A DNA stretch of 64,000 nt from Candidatus Koribacter versatilis Ellin345. Lineage in GTDB: Bacteria; Acidobacteriota; Terriglobia; Terriglobales; Acidobacteriaceae. The stretch spans positions 2,418,001 to 2,482,000 of the forward strand of contig NC_008009.1 of assembly GCF_000014005.1 (NCBI RefSeq), read 5' to 3'. Made by a program: the position numbers and the translations under genes. Of this stretch, positions 34,113 through 40,399 are shown piece after piece (position 1 is the stretch's first letter; each line of letters begins with the position of its first letter). The notes under the pieces were generated by a model. The model did no database searches. It saw nothing but the letters and a program-made list of their open reading frames with translations, and was not told the DNA's origin.

Positions 34113-34469
34113 TCAGTTTCCGGTCGATGCAGCGGCGGTGTTCGCCGCGTTGAACTGAATCGCCTGGTTCCTGAACTGAATGCCTTGCAGGGCATTGCCT
34201 TCGATCTGGAGCGCACCGTCATACGGAGACTGCGCCTGGGTAACGGTGGCAGGTGTGGTGGCGAGGACCTTCTTACCTTTATTGATGGTTGCGGTCGTCG
34301 CGCCGGTACCTTCCCATTGGACTTTGTAGTCGCCGGCGGGAATTTGAGTGCCGTTGACCGTGACGGCCTTCGGGAAGGTGACGCTCTGCGAATTCTTCGA
34401 AGCTGCAAACATCGAAAGCGGCGTCAAGAAAAGGACGAGCGACAGGACGGTAATGAGCTTTGTCTTCAT
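34113..34469 (-). CDS. Small secreted protein, paralogue 1
   Basis: A protein of 118 residues with signal peptide about 1-22 (FLTPLSMFAAS). The mature part is a small beta-rich domain (IPAGDYKVQWEGTGATTATI, GKKVLATTPATV, DGALQIEGNALQGIQF). It is clearly homologous along its full length to the protein at 37123-37476. No enzyme motif is present and the function is unknown. It is divergent from the tail-fibre-like gene at 34804. Confidence 0.82.
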   Translation of the reverse strand: MKTKLITVLSLVLFLTPLSMFAASKNSQSVTFPKAVTVNGTQIPAGDYKVQWEGTGATTATINKGKKVLATTPATVTQAQSPYDGALQIEGNALQGIQFRNQAIQFNAANTAAASTGN

Positions 34470-34803
34470 GTTTCTTCTCCCAACAAAAATTTCCGTGGTC
34501 AATTCGGGGTTACGGCCACGTACTGATTGGACTATTGGGGGCAGCGAAAGATTCGTGTAACAGCCTCTAAATAATCGATTTAATGTATTCGTAATGGGAT
34601 TCTTGGGACAGGGCGCGCGGACGAGGGATGAGCGTTTTGGAGTCTTGAGCCGGCGGCATTTTCCAGTTGTTCGCGCGATGAGGCACTACCTTTTTAAACA
34701 CTATCTCGCTATACTCGGGGCACTTTAGGGCAGGTTTCCAGACCCTGCCAAGTTCCACCAGGTTCCCCCGCAATTCCCCGCAAAATTCGACCTGGAGGAT
34801 CCC
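34470..34803. other. Divergent intergenic region
   Basis: This 334-bp region separates the divergent small secreted gene and the tail-fibre-like gene. A TATACT element near 34709, inside GCTATACTCGGGG, may be the -10 of the plus-strand gene. GACCTGGAGGATCCC at 34789 supplies its ribosome site. No gene or repeat was found. Confidence 0.4.
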
Positions 34804-37044
34804 GTGAGAGCCCTTTCACGTGTGTTGTTCGCTGTGTTGTTATCGTGCGCATTATTTGCGCAAACCTCGAACCAAACTCAAGTTTCGTCGGATGTGGTTC
34901 CGAAGATGATCCGTTTTTCGGGCCAACTGAAAGACGCCAATCGAACGGTAGGAATCACATTCACCCTGCATAAGTCGCAGCAGGACAATGCATCCCTTTG
35001 GACCGAGACGCAGAACGTGAAACTGGACGAGAGTGGAAAATACAGCGTGCTGCTGGGCGCGATGAAACAGCTCCCGGTGGAAGTGTTCACGTCAGGGGAA
35101 GCGCAATGGCTGGGTATCCATGTGGAAGGCCAGGCGGAGCAACGTGTCCTACTGGTGAGCGTGCCGTATGCATTGAAGGCCGCAGAGGCGGAGACGCTCG
35201 CGGGGCACGCGGCCGGTGAATTCGTGACGACCGAGAAACTGACGCAGACATTGCAGCAGGGGGGCGTCGTCGGGAGCAGTGTTGCCAGGTCGAATAGTGG
35301 TGGCGCCGTTGGGAATGTGGTTACGAATCTAGCTACCAACTTCACTGACAACACGACAAACCAGGTCGTCCTCGTGACGCAGAACGGAAGCGGCAACGGG
35401 CTGGTAGCGACGGCCAAGACTGGCAACGCATTGCAGGGAACAACTGCCGGTGCTGCTACCTATGGAGTGCTTGGTACAAATAGCGCGGCGAGTGGAACGG
35501 CGGTGGGAGTGCGCGGTTCTACGAACTCGCCGAGCGGTATTGCGGTCTATGGAACGTCGAACGCGGCCAGCGGCACCGGCACGGGCGTGAAAGGCGTATC
35601 GGCCTCGCCGAGCGGCTATGGTGTGTTTGGACAAAACAGCTCCACGACTGGAACGGCGGTCGGGTTCCGCGGATCTTCGGCGTCGACGGACGGCGTTGCG
35701 ATCTATGGCACAGCGACATCCACTTCCGGAAAGACGAAGGGATTGATTGCTTCGGTGGCGAGTACGGATGGTATCGCGGCACTTTTCCAGAACACTGCGG
35801 CTTCGGGAAAACTGATCAGCGGGCAGTCCGGGCCGTCGAGCACCGAGGTGTTTTGGGTTGATAACGGGGGAAATCTTTCCGGCACTTCGCTCTCCGCAAC
35901 GACTTCGGGCACTGCGATCTATGGCTCAAGCACCGGGTCGGAGGCGATCTACGGCTACAGCACCGCCAGCGTGGGAGTGTACGCAATTGGGTCCACGAGT
36001 GGCGTGTATAGCAGGTCTACGGGCAGTGGTGGCATTGGCGTCGAAGGAGTCGCCGGGACCTCCACGGGGAGCAATGGCGTAATCGGATACGGCGCGACCG
36101 GCGTTGCAGGCTTCGCGACCGTGGACGGAAGCGTGGGCACGTACGGAAATGCCGGCGCGAGCGCTGGAGGGCGCGGGGTGTGGGGGACGGGGGCTACCGG
36201 CGTGCTCGGAAGCACGAGTGTGAGCGGTGGGACCGGTCTTTACGGCGATGGAGGAAGTGGTAGTGGAAGCCAGGGAGTTTATGGGAAAGGTGCAACGGGC
36301 GTGAATGGCGTGTCGCTCGTCACCACCGGTGTTGGCGTGCATGGTAAGGGCAGCATCGGCGTGCAGGGAGAAGGTGATGGAACCGGATTGGATATCGGCG
36401 TCGACGGATTGTCTGCAACGAACGGTGGCGACGGCGTGTTTGCCTATAACGGCGCCGGCGGCGATGGAATCTACGCGGGAAGCGTTACCGGTTACGCCGC
36501 GTGGCTCGATGCGGACGTTCACGTGAACGGAGCGCTGAGCAAGTCGAGCGGATCGTTCAAGATCGATCATCCGCTGGATCCAGCGAACAAGTATCTGTAC
36601 CACTCGTTTGTCGAGTCGCCGGACATGATGAATATCTACAACGGGAACGTGACGACCGACTCGAAGGGAATGGCGGTGGTAAAGCTGCCTGAGTATTTCG
36701 AAGCACTGAACCGCGATTTCCGTTATCAACTGACGGTGATCGGGCAATTCGCGCAGGCGATCGTGGGACGCGAGATTGCAAATGGAGAATTCACGATCAA
36801 AACCGATAAGCCGAATGTGCGGGTTTCATGGCAGGTGACGGGTGTGCGGCAGGATGCGTGGGCGAATGCGCACCGAGTGCCAGTGGAACAGGACAAGCCG
36901 GGAGTGGAGCGCGGGTCGTACCTGCATCCGGAGTTATTCGGGGCGAAGCAGGACAAGAGCGTGTACGCGGCACGGCATCCGGCGGTGGTGCAGCATCAGA
37001 AGGCGGTACAGGAGAAGGTGGCCGCGGCAACGAAGGAACAGTAG
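34804..37044 (+). CDS. Secreted tail-fibre-like repeat protein
   Basis: A protein of 746 residues from GTG with a strong GGAGG site. Residues 1-20 are a signal peptide. About 30-135 is a conserved N-terminal domain (MIRFSGQLKDANRTVGITF; SVPYALKAAEAETLAG). About 190-580 is a long Gly/Ser/Thr array of near-repeats such as GVYGTSN and GVKGVSASPSGYGVFG, predicted to form a beta-solenoid. The last ~170 residues form a conserved terminal domain (HPLDPANKYLYHSFVESPDM; GREIANGEFTI) shared by many environmental bacterial proteins and resembling tail-fibre tips. A surface fibre or adhesin is likely. Confidence 0.85.
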   Translation: MRALSRVLFAVLLSCALFAQTSNQTQVSSDVVPKMIRFSGQLKDANRTVGITFTLHKSQQDNASLWTETQNVKLDESGKYSVLLGAMKQLPVEVFTSGEAQWLGIHVEGQAEQRVLLVSVPYALKAAEAETLAGHAAGEFVTTEKLTQTLQQGGVVGSSVARSNSGGAVGNVVTNLATNFTDNTTNQVVLVTQNGSGNGLVATAKTGNALQGTTAGAATYGVLGTNSAASGTAVGVRGSTNSPSGIAVYGTSNAASGTGTGVKGVSASPSGYGVFGQNSSTTGTAVGFRGSSASTDGVAIYGTATSTSGKTKGLIASVASTDGIAALFQNTAASGKLISGQSGPSSTEVFWVDNGGNLSGTSLSATTSGTAIYGSSTGSEAIYGYSTASVGVYAIGSTSGVYSRSTGSGGIGVEGVAGTSTGSNGVIGYGATGVAGFATVDGSVGTYGNAGASAGGRGVWGTGATGVLGSTSVSGGTGLYGDGGSGSGSQGVYGKGATGVNGVSLVTTGVGVHGKGSIGVQGEGDGTGLDIGVDGLSATNGGDGVFAYNGAGGDGIYAGSVTGYAAWLDADVHVNGALSKSSGSFKIDHPLDPANKYLYHSFVESPDMMNIYNGNVTTDSKGMAVVKLPEYFEALNRDFRYQLTVIGQFAQAIVGREIANGEFTIKTDKPNVRVSWQVTGVRQDAWANAHRVPVEQDKPGVERGSYLHPELFGAKQDKSVYAARHPAVVQHQKAVQEKVAAATKEQ

Positions 37045-37122: not shown

Positions 37123-37476
37123 CTAATGGCCTGAAGCGGACGCGGCAGAAGAGCCGTTGAATTCGAGGGTGGCGTTCTTGAAGAGGATGCCCTGAAGGGT
37201 GTCTCCGTCAAAGTGCAGCGCGCCGTCGTAATTCGATTTGGTCCCAGTCACGGTTGCGGGTACGGTCGCGAGAACTTTCTTGCCGCGAACGATGTTGGCG
37301 GTGACATTGCCCGTGCCGTCCCACTGAACCTTGTAATCGCCGGCGGGAATGGTGGTGCCGCCGACCGTGATGGTCCGGGAGAACGTAACGGATTGGGAAT
37401 TTTTCGAGGCCGCGAAGAGTGAGAGTGGGGCGAGCAGCAACATCAGCGAGAGCACAGAGATCAACTTCGGTTTCAT
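37123..37476 (-). CDS. Small secreted protein, paralogue 2
   Basis: A protein of 117 residues with signal peptide about 1-22 (LLAPLSLFAAS) and the same beta-rich domain as the protein at 34113-34469: AASKNSQSVTF, IPAGDYKVQWDGTG, GKKVLATVPATV and LQGILFKNATLEF align without gaps. Together the two paralogues flank the tail-fibre-like gene. Function unknown. Confidence 0.82.
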   Translation of the reverse strand: MKPKLISVLSLMLLLAPLSLFAASKNSQSVTFSRTITVGGTTIPAGDYKVQWDGTGNVTANIVRGKKVLATVPATVTGTKSNYDGALHFDGDTLQGILFKNATLEFNGSSAASASGH

Positions 37477-37859
37477 CTTCTTCGACTCCTTTGTGTGTAT
37501 GCGGTGATCGGCCCGCATGGTGATTTGAGAGATGCAGGTCGTGCAACGATTCGTCGGGCGAGGGAAGTTGATGGGATGGGGTTGAGTGCGAGAGGGATGA
37601 ACGTTGGGAAAGTGATCAATAGGGGCGAAAGCGCCTATTTGGAACGAATTTCGTGAGTGCTGAGCAGCCCTCAGGCAAGGCGAGCGATTCCCATCTCGTC
37701 ACTCGCTCCGTCTAACCTTAAACATTCTTGCGTTGGGTGCCGATTGTTCCGGTAGAATCCTCCCGCCGTCCGGAAGGCGGGTCGGAGCGACGTCTGCTGG
37801 AATGGGCTGGAAGAGGACGGGTGGCGTAGAGTACGCTTCGTCCAAGCGGTAGCTTGTTG
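37477..37859. other. Intergenic region upstream of the lon promoter
   Basis: There is no convincing gene in this stretch. Small hairpins are present (CCCGCC-GTCCGGAA-GGCGGG near 37768) but no recognised riboswitch. The lon promoter and operator are listed separately. Confidence 0.45.
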
Positions 37860-37887
37860 TTGGTAAGTGACTGATTGTATTTATAGT
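37860..37887 (+). promoter_or_regulatory. Putative lon promoter
   Basis: TTGGTA (37860-37865) and TATAGT (37882-37887) spaced by 16 bp fit a sigma-70-type promoter. They lie about 68 bp before the lon start, upstream of the HAIR operator. Confidence 0.4.
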
Positions 37888-37926
37888 TATGCGCACTGCA
37901 TCTTTTTGAGCGGTGCCTCATCTAAA

Positions 37927-37947
37927 CTTGAGCATAAGTGACTCAAG
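37927..37947 (+). promoter_or_regulatory. HAIR-type (HspR) operator of lon
   Basis: CTTGAGC-ATAAGTG-ACTCAAG matches the HspR-associated inverted repeat CTTGAGT-N7-ACTCAAG at 13 of 14 arm positions with the exact 7-bp spacer. It overlaps the lon ribosome site AAGGAG and ends 7 bp before the ATG. HspR, a MerR-type repressor, releases such sites on heat shock; lon is a known HspR target in Streptomyces. Confidence 0.78.
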
Positions 37948-37954
37948 GAGCAAT

Positions 37955-40399
37955 ATGGCGAACGAAGCTCACAATATTGAGCATACTGACCCGGAGTTTC
38001 GAGACGATTCCGCAGATGCCCGTACCCTGCCTCTGCTGCCCGTTCGCGACACCGTACTATTTCCCCATGCCGTGCTCCCGCTGACTGTTGGTCGCGAGAG
38101 TTCGGTCCAATTGATTAATTCCCTCGGTGAAGACAAGACGATTGTGGTGGTGGCGCAGCGTGAAGCGCGCGTGGATTCACCGCAGCCAAGCGACCTGTTT
38201 GCCATCGGCTCGCTGGCCGTGGTGCACAAGGTCGTAAAGATGCCGAACCAGAGCCTTTTCGTATTTGCGGAAGGCCTGGAGCGTGTGCGCGTCACTGAGT
38301 ATGTGCAGCTCAATCCTTATATGCGGGCGACGGTGGAGACCGTTCCCGAGGCGTTTCCGCCGAAGAGTGCCGAGATTGAAGCATTGCAGCGCAATGTGCT
38401 GACGCTGTTCCAGCAAATTGTGACCGGATCGCCGACGTTGAGCGATGAGCTTTCGACCGTCGCGATGAACATTGAAGAGCCGGGACGATTGGTGGACTTC
38501 GTGGCATCGTCGTTGCCATCACTCTCCACCAAGGACAAGCAGGAGATTCTCGAGACTGCGGACGTTCAGATCCGGCTCGACAAGATCAATCAGCACCTGG
38601 CGAAAGAACTGGAAGTCCAGCAGCTTCGCAACAAGATCCAGAGCGAAGTGCAGGACCGCGTGCAACAGACGCAGCGTGAGTACTACTTGCGCGAGCAGTT
38701 GAAAGCGATTCAGAAGGAACTGGGCGAGCAGGACGACAGCACTCGGGATGCGGATGAACTGCGTGAGAAGGTCGAAGCCGCCGGCATGCCGGACGATGTG
38801 AAGAAGGAAGCGCTGAAGGAACTCGGCCGGTTGGCGCGGATGTCGCCGATGGCAGCGGATTATTCTGTGACGCGCAACTACATCGAGTGGCTGGCAGTGC
38901 TGCCTTGGCAAAAGTCGAGCGGCGCCGGAGAGATTGATATCCCGAAGGCGAAGGACATTCTCGACGAAGATCACTACGACCTACAGAAAGTGAAAGACCG
39001 CATTCTCGACTACCTTTCGGTACGGCGGTTGAAGCCGAACATGAAGGGGCCGATCCTGTGCTTCAGCGGGCCTCCGGGCGTGGGTAAAACTTCGCTGGGC
39101 AAGTCGATTGCGCGTGCGCTGGGACGCAAGTTCGTACGCATCTCGCTAGGCGGCGTGCACGACGAGGCGGAAATCCGCGGACATCGGCGGACGTATATCG
39201 GCGCGTTGCCGGGACAGATCATGCAGGGCATTCGTCGTGCCGAGACGAACGACCCGGTATTCATGCTCGACGAAATTGATAAGGTCGGGCGCGACTTCCG
39301 CGGCGATCCGTCGGCGGCATTGCTCGAGGCGCTCGATCCGGAGCAGAACAATTCGTTCCGCGACAACTACCTCGATGTGCCGTTCGATCTGAGCAAGGTA
39401 CTGTTCATTACCACGGCGAACCAACTCGATCCGATTCCCGAACCGCTCCGCGACCGCATGGAGATCATCGACCTCCAGGGGTACAGCGAAGAAGAGAAAG
39501 TCCATATCGCGTTCCGTTACCTGATTCCGCGACAGGAAGAAGAGAACGGAATTACGAAGGACATGATCGAATTCAGCGAAGAGGCGGTGCGCCGGATCAT
39601 CCGCCACTACACGCGAGAAGCGGGCGTTCGTAACCTGGAACGGAACATCGGAACGGTGTGCCGGAAGCTGGCCCGACGGATTGCGGAAGGGAAGACTGAG
39701 AAACTGGCGGTCACTCCACAGACGATCACCGAGATGCTGGGCGGCGAGAAGGTCCGCGTGGACACCGAAATCGCAGAGCGCACGAAGCGCGCGGGAGTTG
39801 TGGTTGGACTGGCGTGGACGCCGGCCGGCGGCGACATCCTGTTCGTGGAAGCGACGACGATGAAGGGCAAAGGCGGATTTACGATGACCGGCCAGTTGGG
39901 CGATGTGATGCGTGAATCCATGCAGGCAGCGTTGAGCTGGGTGAAGTCGAACGCGGGGAAACTCGGGATTGATGAAGAGTTCTTCGAGAAGCACGATATC
40001 CATATTCACGTGCCGGCAGGCGCCATTCCGAAAGATGGACCGTCGGCGGGCGTGACGATGGTGACGGCGTTGGTATCTCTGCTGACGGACAAGCCGTTGC
40101 GTCCGTTGACGGCGATGACCGGCGAGATCACGCTGAGTGGCAATGTCCTGCCGATCGGCGGTGTGAAAGAAAAGACGCTCGCCGCGAAACGCGCAGGCGT
40201 GAAGACGATCATCCTGCCATCGGAAAACAAGATGAACATGGATGAAGACCTGACGCCGGAACAACTGCAGGGAATCGAAGTGCACTACGTCAAGACGATT
40301 GATGAGGTGCTGGAGATCGCGCTGCCGTCAAACAAGGCGGAAGAGAAGCAGGATGCACGGACGCGGGCCGAAGTTTTGAACGAAGTGCCTGCGGTGTAA
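37955..40399 (+). CDS. lon: ATP-dependent Lon protease
   Basis: A cytoplasmic AAA+ serine protease of 814 residues that degrades misfolded and regulatory proteins. An N-terminal LON substrate domain begins at LPLLPVRDTVLFPHAVLP. The AAA+ module has Walker A GPPGVGKT at about 372 and Walker B MLDEIDKVG. The protease domain has catalytic Ser697 in KDGPSAGVTM and Lys740 in GGVKEKTLAAKRAG. ATG at 37955 has AAGGAG just upstream. The HAIR operator implies heat-shock control by HspR. A strong terminator follows. Confidence 0.97.
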   Translation: MANEAHNIEHTDPEFRDDSADARTLPLLPVRDTVLFPHAVLPLTVGRESSVQLINSLGEDKTIVVVAQREARVDSPQPSDLFAIGSLAVVHKVVKMPNQSLFVFAEGLERVRVTEYVQLNPYMRATVETVPEAFPPKSAEIEALQRNVLTLFQQIVTGSPTLSDELSTVAMNIEEPGRLVDFVASSLPSLSTKDKQEILETADVQIRLDKINQHLAKELEVQQLRNKIQSEVQDRVQQTQREYYLREQLKAIQKELGEQDDSTRDADELREKVEAAGMPDDVKKEALKELGRLARMSPMAADYSVTRNYIEWLAVLPWQKSSGAGEIDIPKAKDILDEDHYDLQKVKDRILDYLSVRRLKPNMKGPILCFSGPPGVGKTSLGKSIARALGRKFVRISLGGVHDEAEIRGHRRTYIGALPGQIMQGIRRAETNDPVFMLDEIDKVGRDFRGDPSAALLEALDPEQNNSFRDNYLDVPFDLSKVLFITTANQLDPIPEPLRDRMEIIDLQGYSEEEKVHIAFRYLIPRQEEENGITKDMIEFSEEAVRRIIRHYTREAGVRNLERNIGTVCRKLARRIAEGKTEKLAVTPQTITEMLGGEKVRVDTEIAERTKRAGVVVGLAWTPAGGDILFVEATTMKGKGGFTMTGQLGDVMRESMQAALSWVKSNAGKLGIDEEFFEKHDIHIHVPAGAIPKDGPSAGVTMVTALVSLLTDKPLRPLTAMTGEITLSGNVLPIGGVKEKTLAAKRAGVKTIILPSENKMNMDEDLTPEQLQGIEVHYVKTIDEVLEIALPSNKAEEKQDARTRAEVLNEVPAV

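Follow-up and report, generated by a model that had tools for sequence, protein, structure and literature searches.

The 21-bp element CTTGAGCATAAGTGACTCAAG upstream of lon, in a 64,000-nucleotide stretch of the Candidatus Koribacter versatilis Ellin345 genome (hereafter the window), is a real and strongly conserved predicted HspR operator of the HAIR type, and was rightly read as such in the first-pass annotation. That annotation missed a conserved ECF-type promoter abutting the operator. We consider it probable that the operator lies over the initiation region of this promoter, which would respond to thiol stress. The features are listed in Table 1.

Table 1. Predicted regulatory elements at lon and the gene of the candidate sigma factor
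Feature	Position	Strand	Remarks
-35-like element TGCATCTTT of ECF-type promoter	37897..37905	+	conserved in relatives
-10-like element TCATCTAAA, abuts operator	37918..37926	+	like element before the ECF sigma gene and dnaK
Predicted HspR site, HAIR operator CTTGAGC-N7-ACTCAAG	37927..37947	+	spans predicted transcription start and 5' half of Shine-Dalgarno
lon Shine-Dalgarno AAGGAG	37945..37950	+	AAG in common with operator right arm
lon, endopeptidase La, 814 aa from ATG at 37955	37955..40399	+	TIGR00763
ECF sigma gene, lon-type promoter in front, CHCC zinc anti-sigma behind	G000:C1:3184858-3185445 (L313)		also L308-L318

Between the element and the lon ATG are 7 nt; the gene downstream scores 982 bits against TIGR00763 (cut-off 608). 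The element had been described as CTTGAGC-N7-ACTCAAG with exact spacing and a single mismatch to the HAIR consensus, overlapping the Shine-Dalgarno sequence; its sequence, coordinates, spacing and single mismatch (to CTTGAGT-N7-ACTCAAG) are all confirmed, and AAGGAG indeed runs into the operator right arm. Compared with the Streptomyces coelicolor operator TTGAGY-N7-ACTCAA, as given in the available text of PMC2687793, the site shows 0 mismatches (positions 37928–37946). This sequence occurs nowhere else on the plus strand of the window, and CTTGAGY-N7-ACTCAAG is matched exactly at no other place than lon in the whole genome (a single contig of 5,650,368 bases). Rarity of the palindrome was nevertheless rejected as evidence, since at up to three mismatches the window holds 3 matches versus 2.07 expected and, at up to two mismatches genome-wide, the reversed control is commoner (99+96 versus 21+20 matches). 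By eye, no heat-shock genes were seen among the ORFs surrounding two further places with a one-mismatch HAIR (L002 and L003). We judge the lon site to be real because it is conserved in relatives, which is decisive; rarity alone is weak evidence.

Conservation was assessed in 81 lon loci, consisting of the window and 80 relatives, the best of at least 548 confirmed, a sample skewed to close relatives. For one of them (L107) the automatic choice fell on an incorrect site nearby, so that its distances were not used; the locus is still included in the 81-locus counts and in the dereplicated set. The best upstream HAIR had no mismatch in 21 loci, one in 53, two in 4 and three in 3, so that 74 of the 81 carry a site with at most one mismatch; dinucleotide shuffles of the same loci gave a mean of 0.8 of 81 at up to three mismatches. 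In the 70 loci left after dereplication of this sample, TTGA and CTCA are invariant, and flanking columns past about −36 mostly carry less than 0.1 bit. The right arm of the operator is conserved better than the left in these 70 loci, consistent with its serving both as operator and as Shine-Dalgarno sequence.

A broader sample covered genomes inside and outside the family. Five of 13 family genomes sampled have a lon HAIR at up to three mismatches, and seven of the 12 that have HspR carry only a degenerate lon site (4–5 mismatches). The remaining family genome (G009, loci L172 and L128, rated 100% complete) is without a recognisable HspR and has a degenerate lon site with a promoter core of 8/10, and its dnaK keeps both the ECF core and a TTGACA-type HAIR. 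Outside the family, none of 75 genomes (17 + 58) had a HAIR with up to three mismatches in the 350–400 nt or so scanned upstream of the best-scoring lon copy; these are 75 of 106 genomes, those left out including G089 (too short) and G080. A single three-mismatch match near lon in G056 lies within coding DNA, and two genomes of one genus outside the family (G040 and G064) have a weak dnaK-type site with four mismatches. The second lon of the genome (L279) likewise has no HAIR within 400 nt upstream, its best match having four mismatches and a loose dnaK-type match being coding DNA. Upstream of lon in two genomes of one genus from another family (L180, L181) we noted TTTGACA-N7-ACTCAAC, possibly an independent HAIR-like site.

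In the alignment of the 70 dereplicated loci, a second conserved motif, TG(C/A)ATCTTT ... TCATC(T/C)AAA, stands directly 5' of the lon operator. Its core can be written TG(C/A)ATC-N16/17-CATC. Among the 81 loci (window plus best 80 of 548), 24 have a TG-to-CATC step of 22 nt and 51 one of 23 nt, corresponding to spacers of 16 or 17, and 6 differ. CATC lies 7–12 nt 5' of the HAIR in all 81, L107 being counted at its wrongly picked site, and 75 of the 81 match the core at 13/13 positions, compared with 0.05 of 81 in shuffles. Seven family genomes with a degenerate HAIR (L165–L171), scored without a shuffle control, have a core of 9/10 (TGCGAC ... CATC). In several of these seven, an ATG lies across the degenerate right arm or just past it, as in CACTCAATG, and their lon mRNA may have a very short leader or none. 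Further upstream of lon in the window, a weak sigma-70-like promoter (37860–37887) could give a longer leader. As part of the preferred reading, we propose that the ECF-type promoter is the main promoter of lon. The -10-like element at lon resembles CATNTA of RpoH (sigma-32) promoters; an RpoH promoter at lon was dropped, given that no gene in the genome scores over the TIGR02392 cut-off (one of two sub-threshold hits is by eye a flagellar-type sigma factor) and that an ECF sigma gene has a like promoter.

The motif recurs in front of other genes. Across 19 family genomes it gave 41 matches versus 5 for the reversed control, with at least one match in 15 of the 19, and a stricter pattern gave 15 matches at up to two mismatches in the Koribacter genome versus 5 for the control. 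Among 28 loci inspected, the genes behind the motif include those for thioredoxin reductase (trxB), BshA, BshC, an HtpX-like protease (361 bits, under the cut-off of 369), pirin, a peroxiredoxin, Dps and an ECF sigma factor, with identities confirmed by family matches in a single member apiece, or in two members for the ECF sigma factor. HslV was confirmed behind the motif in the Koribacter genome and recognised by eye in a relative. For about a dozen of the 28, the downstream gene is unclear or unrelated. We predict that the motif genes form a thiol-stress regulon that includes bacillithiol synthesis. At the Koribacter hslV locus (L145, 228908–228936), the start lies 10 nt past an almost perfect match to the ECF-type promoter of lon, and the relative (L291) is alike.

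A query with the ECF protein found matches in 21 of the 21 genomes searched. Upstream of the best ECF sigma copy, the motif is 12/13 or better in every one of 13 family genomes, and eight sister-family genomes have a core of 8–10 at this place. At two loci that were read through, the ECF gene overlaps the one after it, whose product is a zf-HC2 protein (PF13490) with the motif C-x25-HxxxCxxC. The cysteine and HxxxCxxC were found in 11 of the 11 family loci examined, a check separate from L319–L325, which were scored for the promoter core only. A CHCC arrangement is given for RsrA in the available part of PMC4960319. Because the same motif precedes this ECF sigma gene, the lon promoter is most likely read by its product, an autoregulated ECF sigma factor paired with an RsrA-like zinc anti-sigma factor that, judging from the cysteine motif alone, would sense thiol stress. 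It could also be that HspR controls lon while a different regulator binds the motif in front, or a sigma factor not paired with the RsrA-like protein reads it: the sigma factor is assigned by the common motif, further ECF sigma genes are present in the genome, and a distant ECF paralogue in the sister family (L334) likewise has a core of 12/13. We regard this as unlikely, since the motif has promoter spacing, ends at most 60 nt from the start in most of the assignable genes among the 28 loci inspected, and stands directly 5' of the ECF gene with a 13/13 match in 11 of the 13 family genomes.

A candidate for the repressor was found as one of nine MerR_1 matches in the genome. Read from an internal ATG, this hspR candidate scores 104.6 bits against NF047375 (cut-off 105), or 105.2 bits together with its frame neighbours. 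The candidate gene is oriented like dnaK and sits about 6.6 kb downstream of it; between the two is a dnaJ-like gene (identified by eye). By hand count, 97 of 119 genomes have an HspR of at least 90 bits, the next best match scoring 66 bits, and HspR is present in 12 of the 13 family genomes. A HAIR-like site, CTTGACAGTAACTCACTCAAG, lies 93 nt upstream of the dnaK ATG and differs from the published consensus by two mismatches. Its left arm forms the -35 element of a sigma-70 promoter, TTGACA-17-GATAAT. Upstream of the hsp20-clpB operon of the same genome only a weak HAIR-like sequence was seen. HrcA is also present in the genome. With an hspR gene and a further HAIR-like site at dnaK in the genome, and with the lon site kept in close relatives, HspR control of lon as predicted in the first-pass annotation is well supported by sequence. 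That annotation would have been refuted by a genome lacking both hspR and other HAIR sites, which is not the case here.

We collected 30 dnaK loci, 28 of which could be scored for the ECF core. An ECF core of at least 9/10 with CATC 9–10 nt 5' of the HAIR was found in 16 of 17 family loci, compared with 0.14 of 17 in shuffles, and in 0 of 11 loci of the sister family did the core reach 9/10. The core at the Koribacter dnaK is 9/10 (CGCAAC in place of TGCAAC). The dnaK-type HAIR pattern was derived from these dnaK sites themselves, and their best match to the published consensus has 2–5 mismatches in the 26 loci scored. By its sequence, the dnaK region repeats the lon layout, a predicted ECF-type promoter followed by a HAIR.

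HspR most likely blocks initiation from the thiol-stress ECF promoter at lon; this follows from the conserved promoter that abuts the operator and is shared with the sigma/anti-sigma and thiol genes. From the usual promoter geometry, with the -10 taken at 37919–37925, the ECF sigma factor and RNA polymerase would start lon near 37929–37933, and HspR would cover +1 because this start falls inside the operator left arm. In Streptomyces, DnaK holds HspR in its DNA-binding form. In unstressed cells HspR, presumably kept DNA-binding by DnaK, would sit on +1 and block initiation. Heat or misfolded protein would titrate DnaK and free the operator, thiol oxidation would free the ECF sigma factor from its anti-sigma factor, and Lon output would be set by both signals, heat and thiol, meeting at one switch. 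We infer the direction of control, HspR binding, the start point, the identity of the sigma factor and the signal to the anti-sigma factor.

The first-pass annotation had raised interference with translation through the Shine-Dalgarno overlap, and adding the ECF promoter shifts the likely mechanism from this to repression of initiation. In five relatives (L048, L051, L053, L075, L083) the most upstream in-frame ATG, taken from the reading frame and not from annotation, lies 36–88 nt past the operator, and CATC stays 7–9 nt before it. Because these loci keep the CATC distance with a start so far off, the position of the operator is tied to the promoter rather than to the ribosome site, and the overlap with the Shine-Dalgarno sequence seems to be a mere consequence of a short leader. 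The repeat could still act in the mRNA, alone or with HspR, as an RNA thermometer whose heat-melting hairpin hides the Shine-Dalgarno sequence. A transcript with the whole repeat can fold (−14.2 kcal/mol, z −2.37), AAG is common to the right arm and the Shine-Dalgarno sequence, and the HAIR ends 7–8 nt before an ATG in 66 of the 81 lon loci (window plus best 80 of 548). However, of the two variable pairs, the outer is broken in 32 and the inner in 25 of the same 81 loci, and compensatory change is lacking save for an outer pair swapped to G-C in two. Because the inferred start is within the left arm, the transcript would be without most of one repeat half; one beginning at 37931 no longer forms the hairpin, which needs a start upstream. 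Moreover, the five distant-start loci keep the repeat behind the promoter, and the related repeat at dnaK stands 63–132 nt upstream of the coding motif at all but one of 30 loci, the exception being at 372 nt. Direct interference with translation is thus not supported, given the fixed promoter geometry, the distant-start loci and the broken hairpin pairs, and we hold an RNA thermometer to be very unlikely.

It is scarcely credible that another protein of the MerR family binds the palindrome, or that nothing binds it any more and it is a relic: there are eight other MerR_1 matches in the genome and G009 has a degenerate site without a recognisable HspR, but the site matches the published HspR operator exactly, is near-invariant in the 70 dereplicated lon loci and has an hspR gene near dnaK in the same genome. 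Several points count against HspR acting over the ECF promoter at lon, namely the single-protein HspR score just under the cut-off, the degenerate lon site in seven of 12 family genomes with HspR, the weak clpB site, the lack of HAIR enrichment genome-wide at two mismatches and the 9/10 core at the organism's own dnaK.

The Streptomyces HspR/HAIR regulon was reportedly described by Sobczyk in 2002. It resembles the Koribacter system in operator sequence, in having a MerR-type HspR gene and in the targets lon and dnaK. The Koribacter system differs from it in belonging to another phylum, in an operator that abuts a conserved ECF-type promoter and enters the Shine-Dalgarno sequence, in its weak clpB site and in an hspR gene that does not directly follow the dnaJ-like gene. 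According to the available portions of PMC2687793, PMC9775585 and PMC13033682, HspR controls lon, dnaK and clpB in Streptomyces, and HAIR is also described for Helicobacter pylori in the part available of PMC6102357. Another parallel is Mycobacterium tuberculosis clpB, which has a SigH promoter overlapped by the HspR site (PMC4803200, in the text available): in both cases a promoter served by a stress ECF sigma factor carries an HspR operator, by prediction in Koribacter. Koribacter differs in the genes concerned, lon and dnaK, and in its promoter core, TGMATC-N16/17-CATC. In Corynebacterium glutamicum the SigH and HspR networks are linked, as the available section of PMC3489674 has it.

The SigR regulon of Streptomyces, governed by the SigR-RsrA disulfide-stress system, includes protease targets. 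Shared with it are the pairing of an ECF sigma factor with a small CHCC zinc anti-sigma factor, so far as the available SigR-RsrA sources describe that pair, and predicted targets such as trxB, low-molecular-weight thiol synthesis and proteases. Unlike that system, bacillithiol genes (bshA, bshC) take the place of mycothiol genes, the promoter is another one, and redox sensing is inferred only. SigR-RsrA governs thiol synthesis according to the part of PMC4360819 at hand. A literature search covering few subscription papers found no paper on HspR/HAIR control of lon in Acidobacteria or on a Koribacter sigma-factor regulon, and the available text of PMC10490939 holds no mention of HspR.

These comparisons extend HspR control of lon, by sequence, to the phylum Acidobacteria, and predict a concrete regulon of thiol stress and protein quality control for abundant, little-studied soil bacteria. 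We lean, by a modest margin, towards a wider proposal: that the family has an undescribed SigR/RsrA-like thiol-stress regulon (bacillithiol synthesis, thioredoxin reductase, peroxiredoxin, HslV, HtpX, Lon, DnaK) and that its proteostasis branch, lon and dnaK, is gated by an HspR operator set a constant distance past the ECF promoter, so that both genes would fire fully only when thiol oxidation and misfolding coincide. An HspR operator on a stress ECF promoter suggests that such an arrangement is not confined to actinobacteria, and one may ask whether the actinobacterial parallel reflects convergence or common descent.

Elsewhere in the window, the minus strand encodes two small proteins that look secreted and resemble each other, AASKNSQSVTF being present in both, at 34113–34502 and 37123–37518; the pair flanks a 746-aa ORF at 34804–37044.
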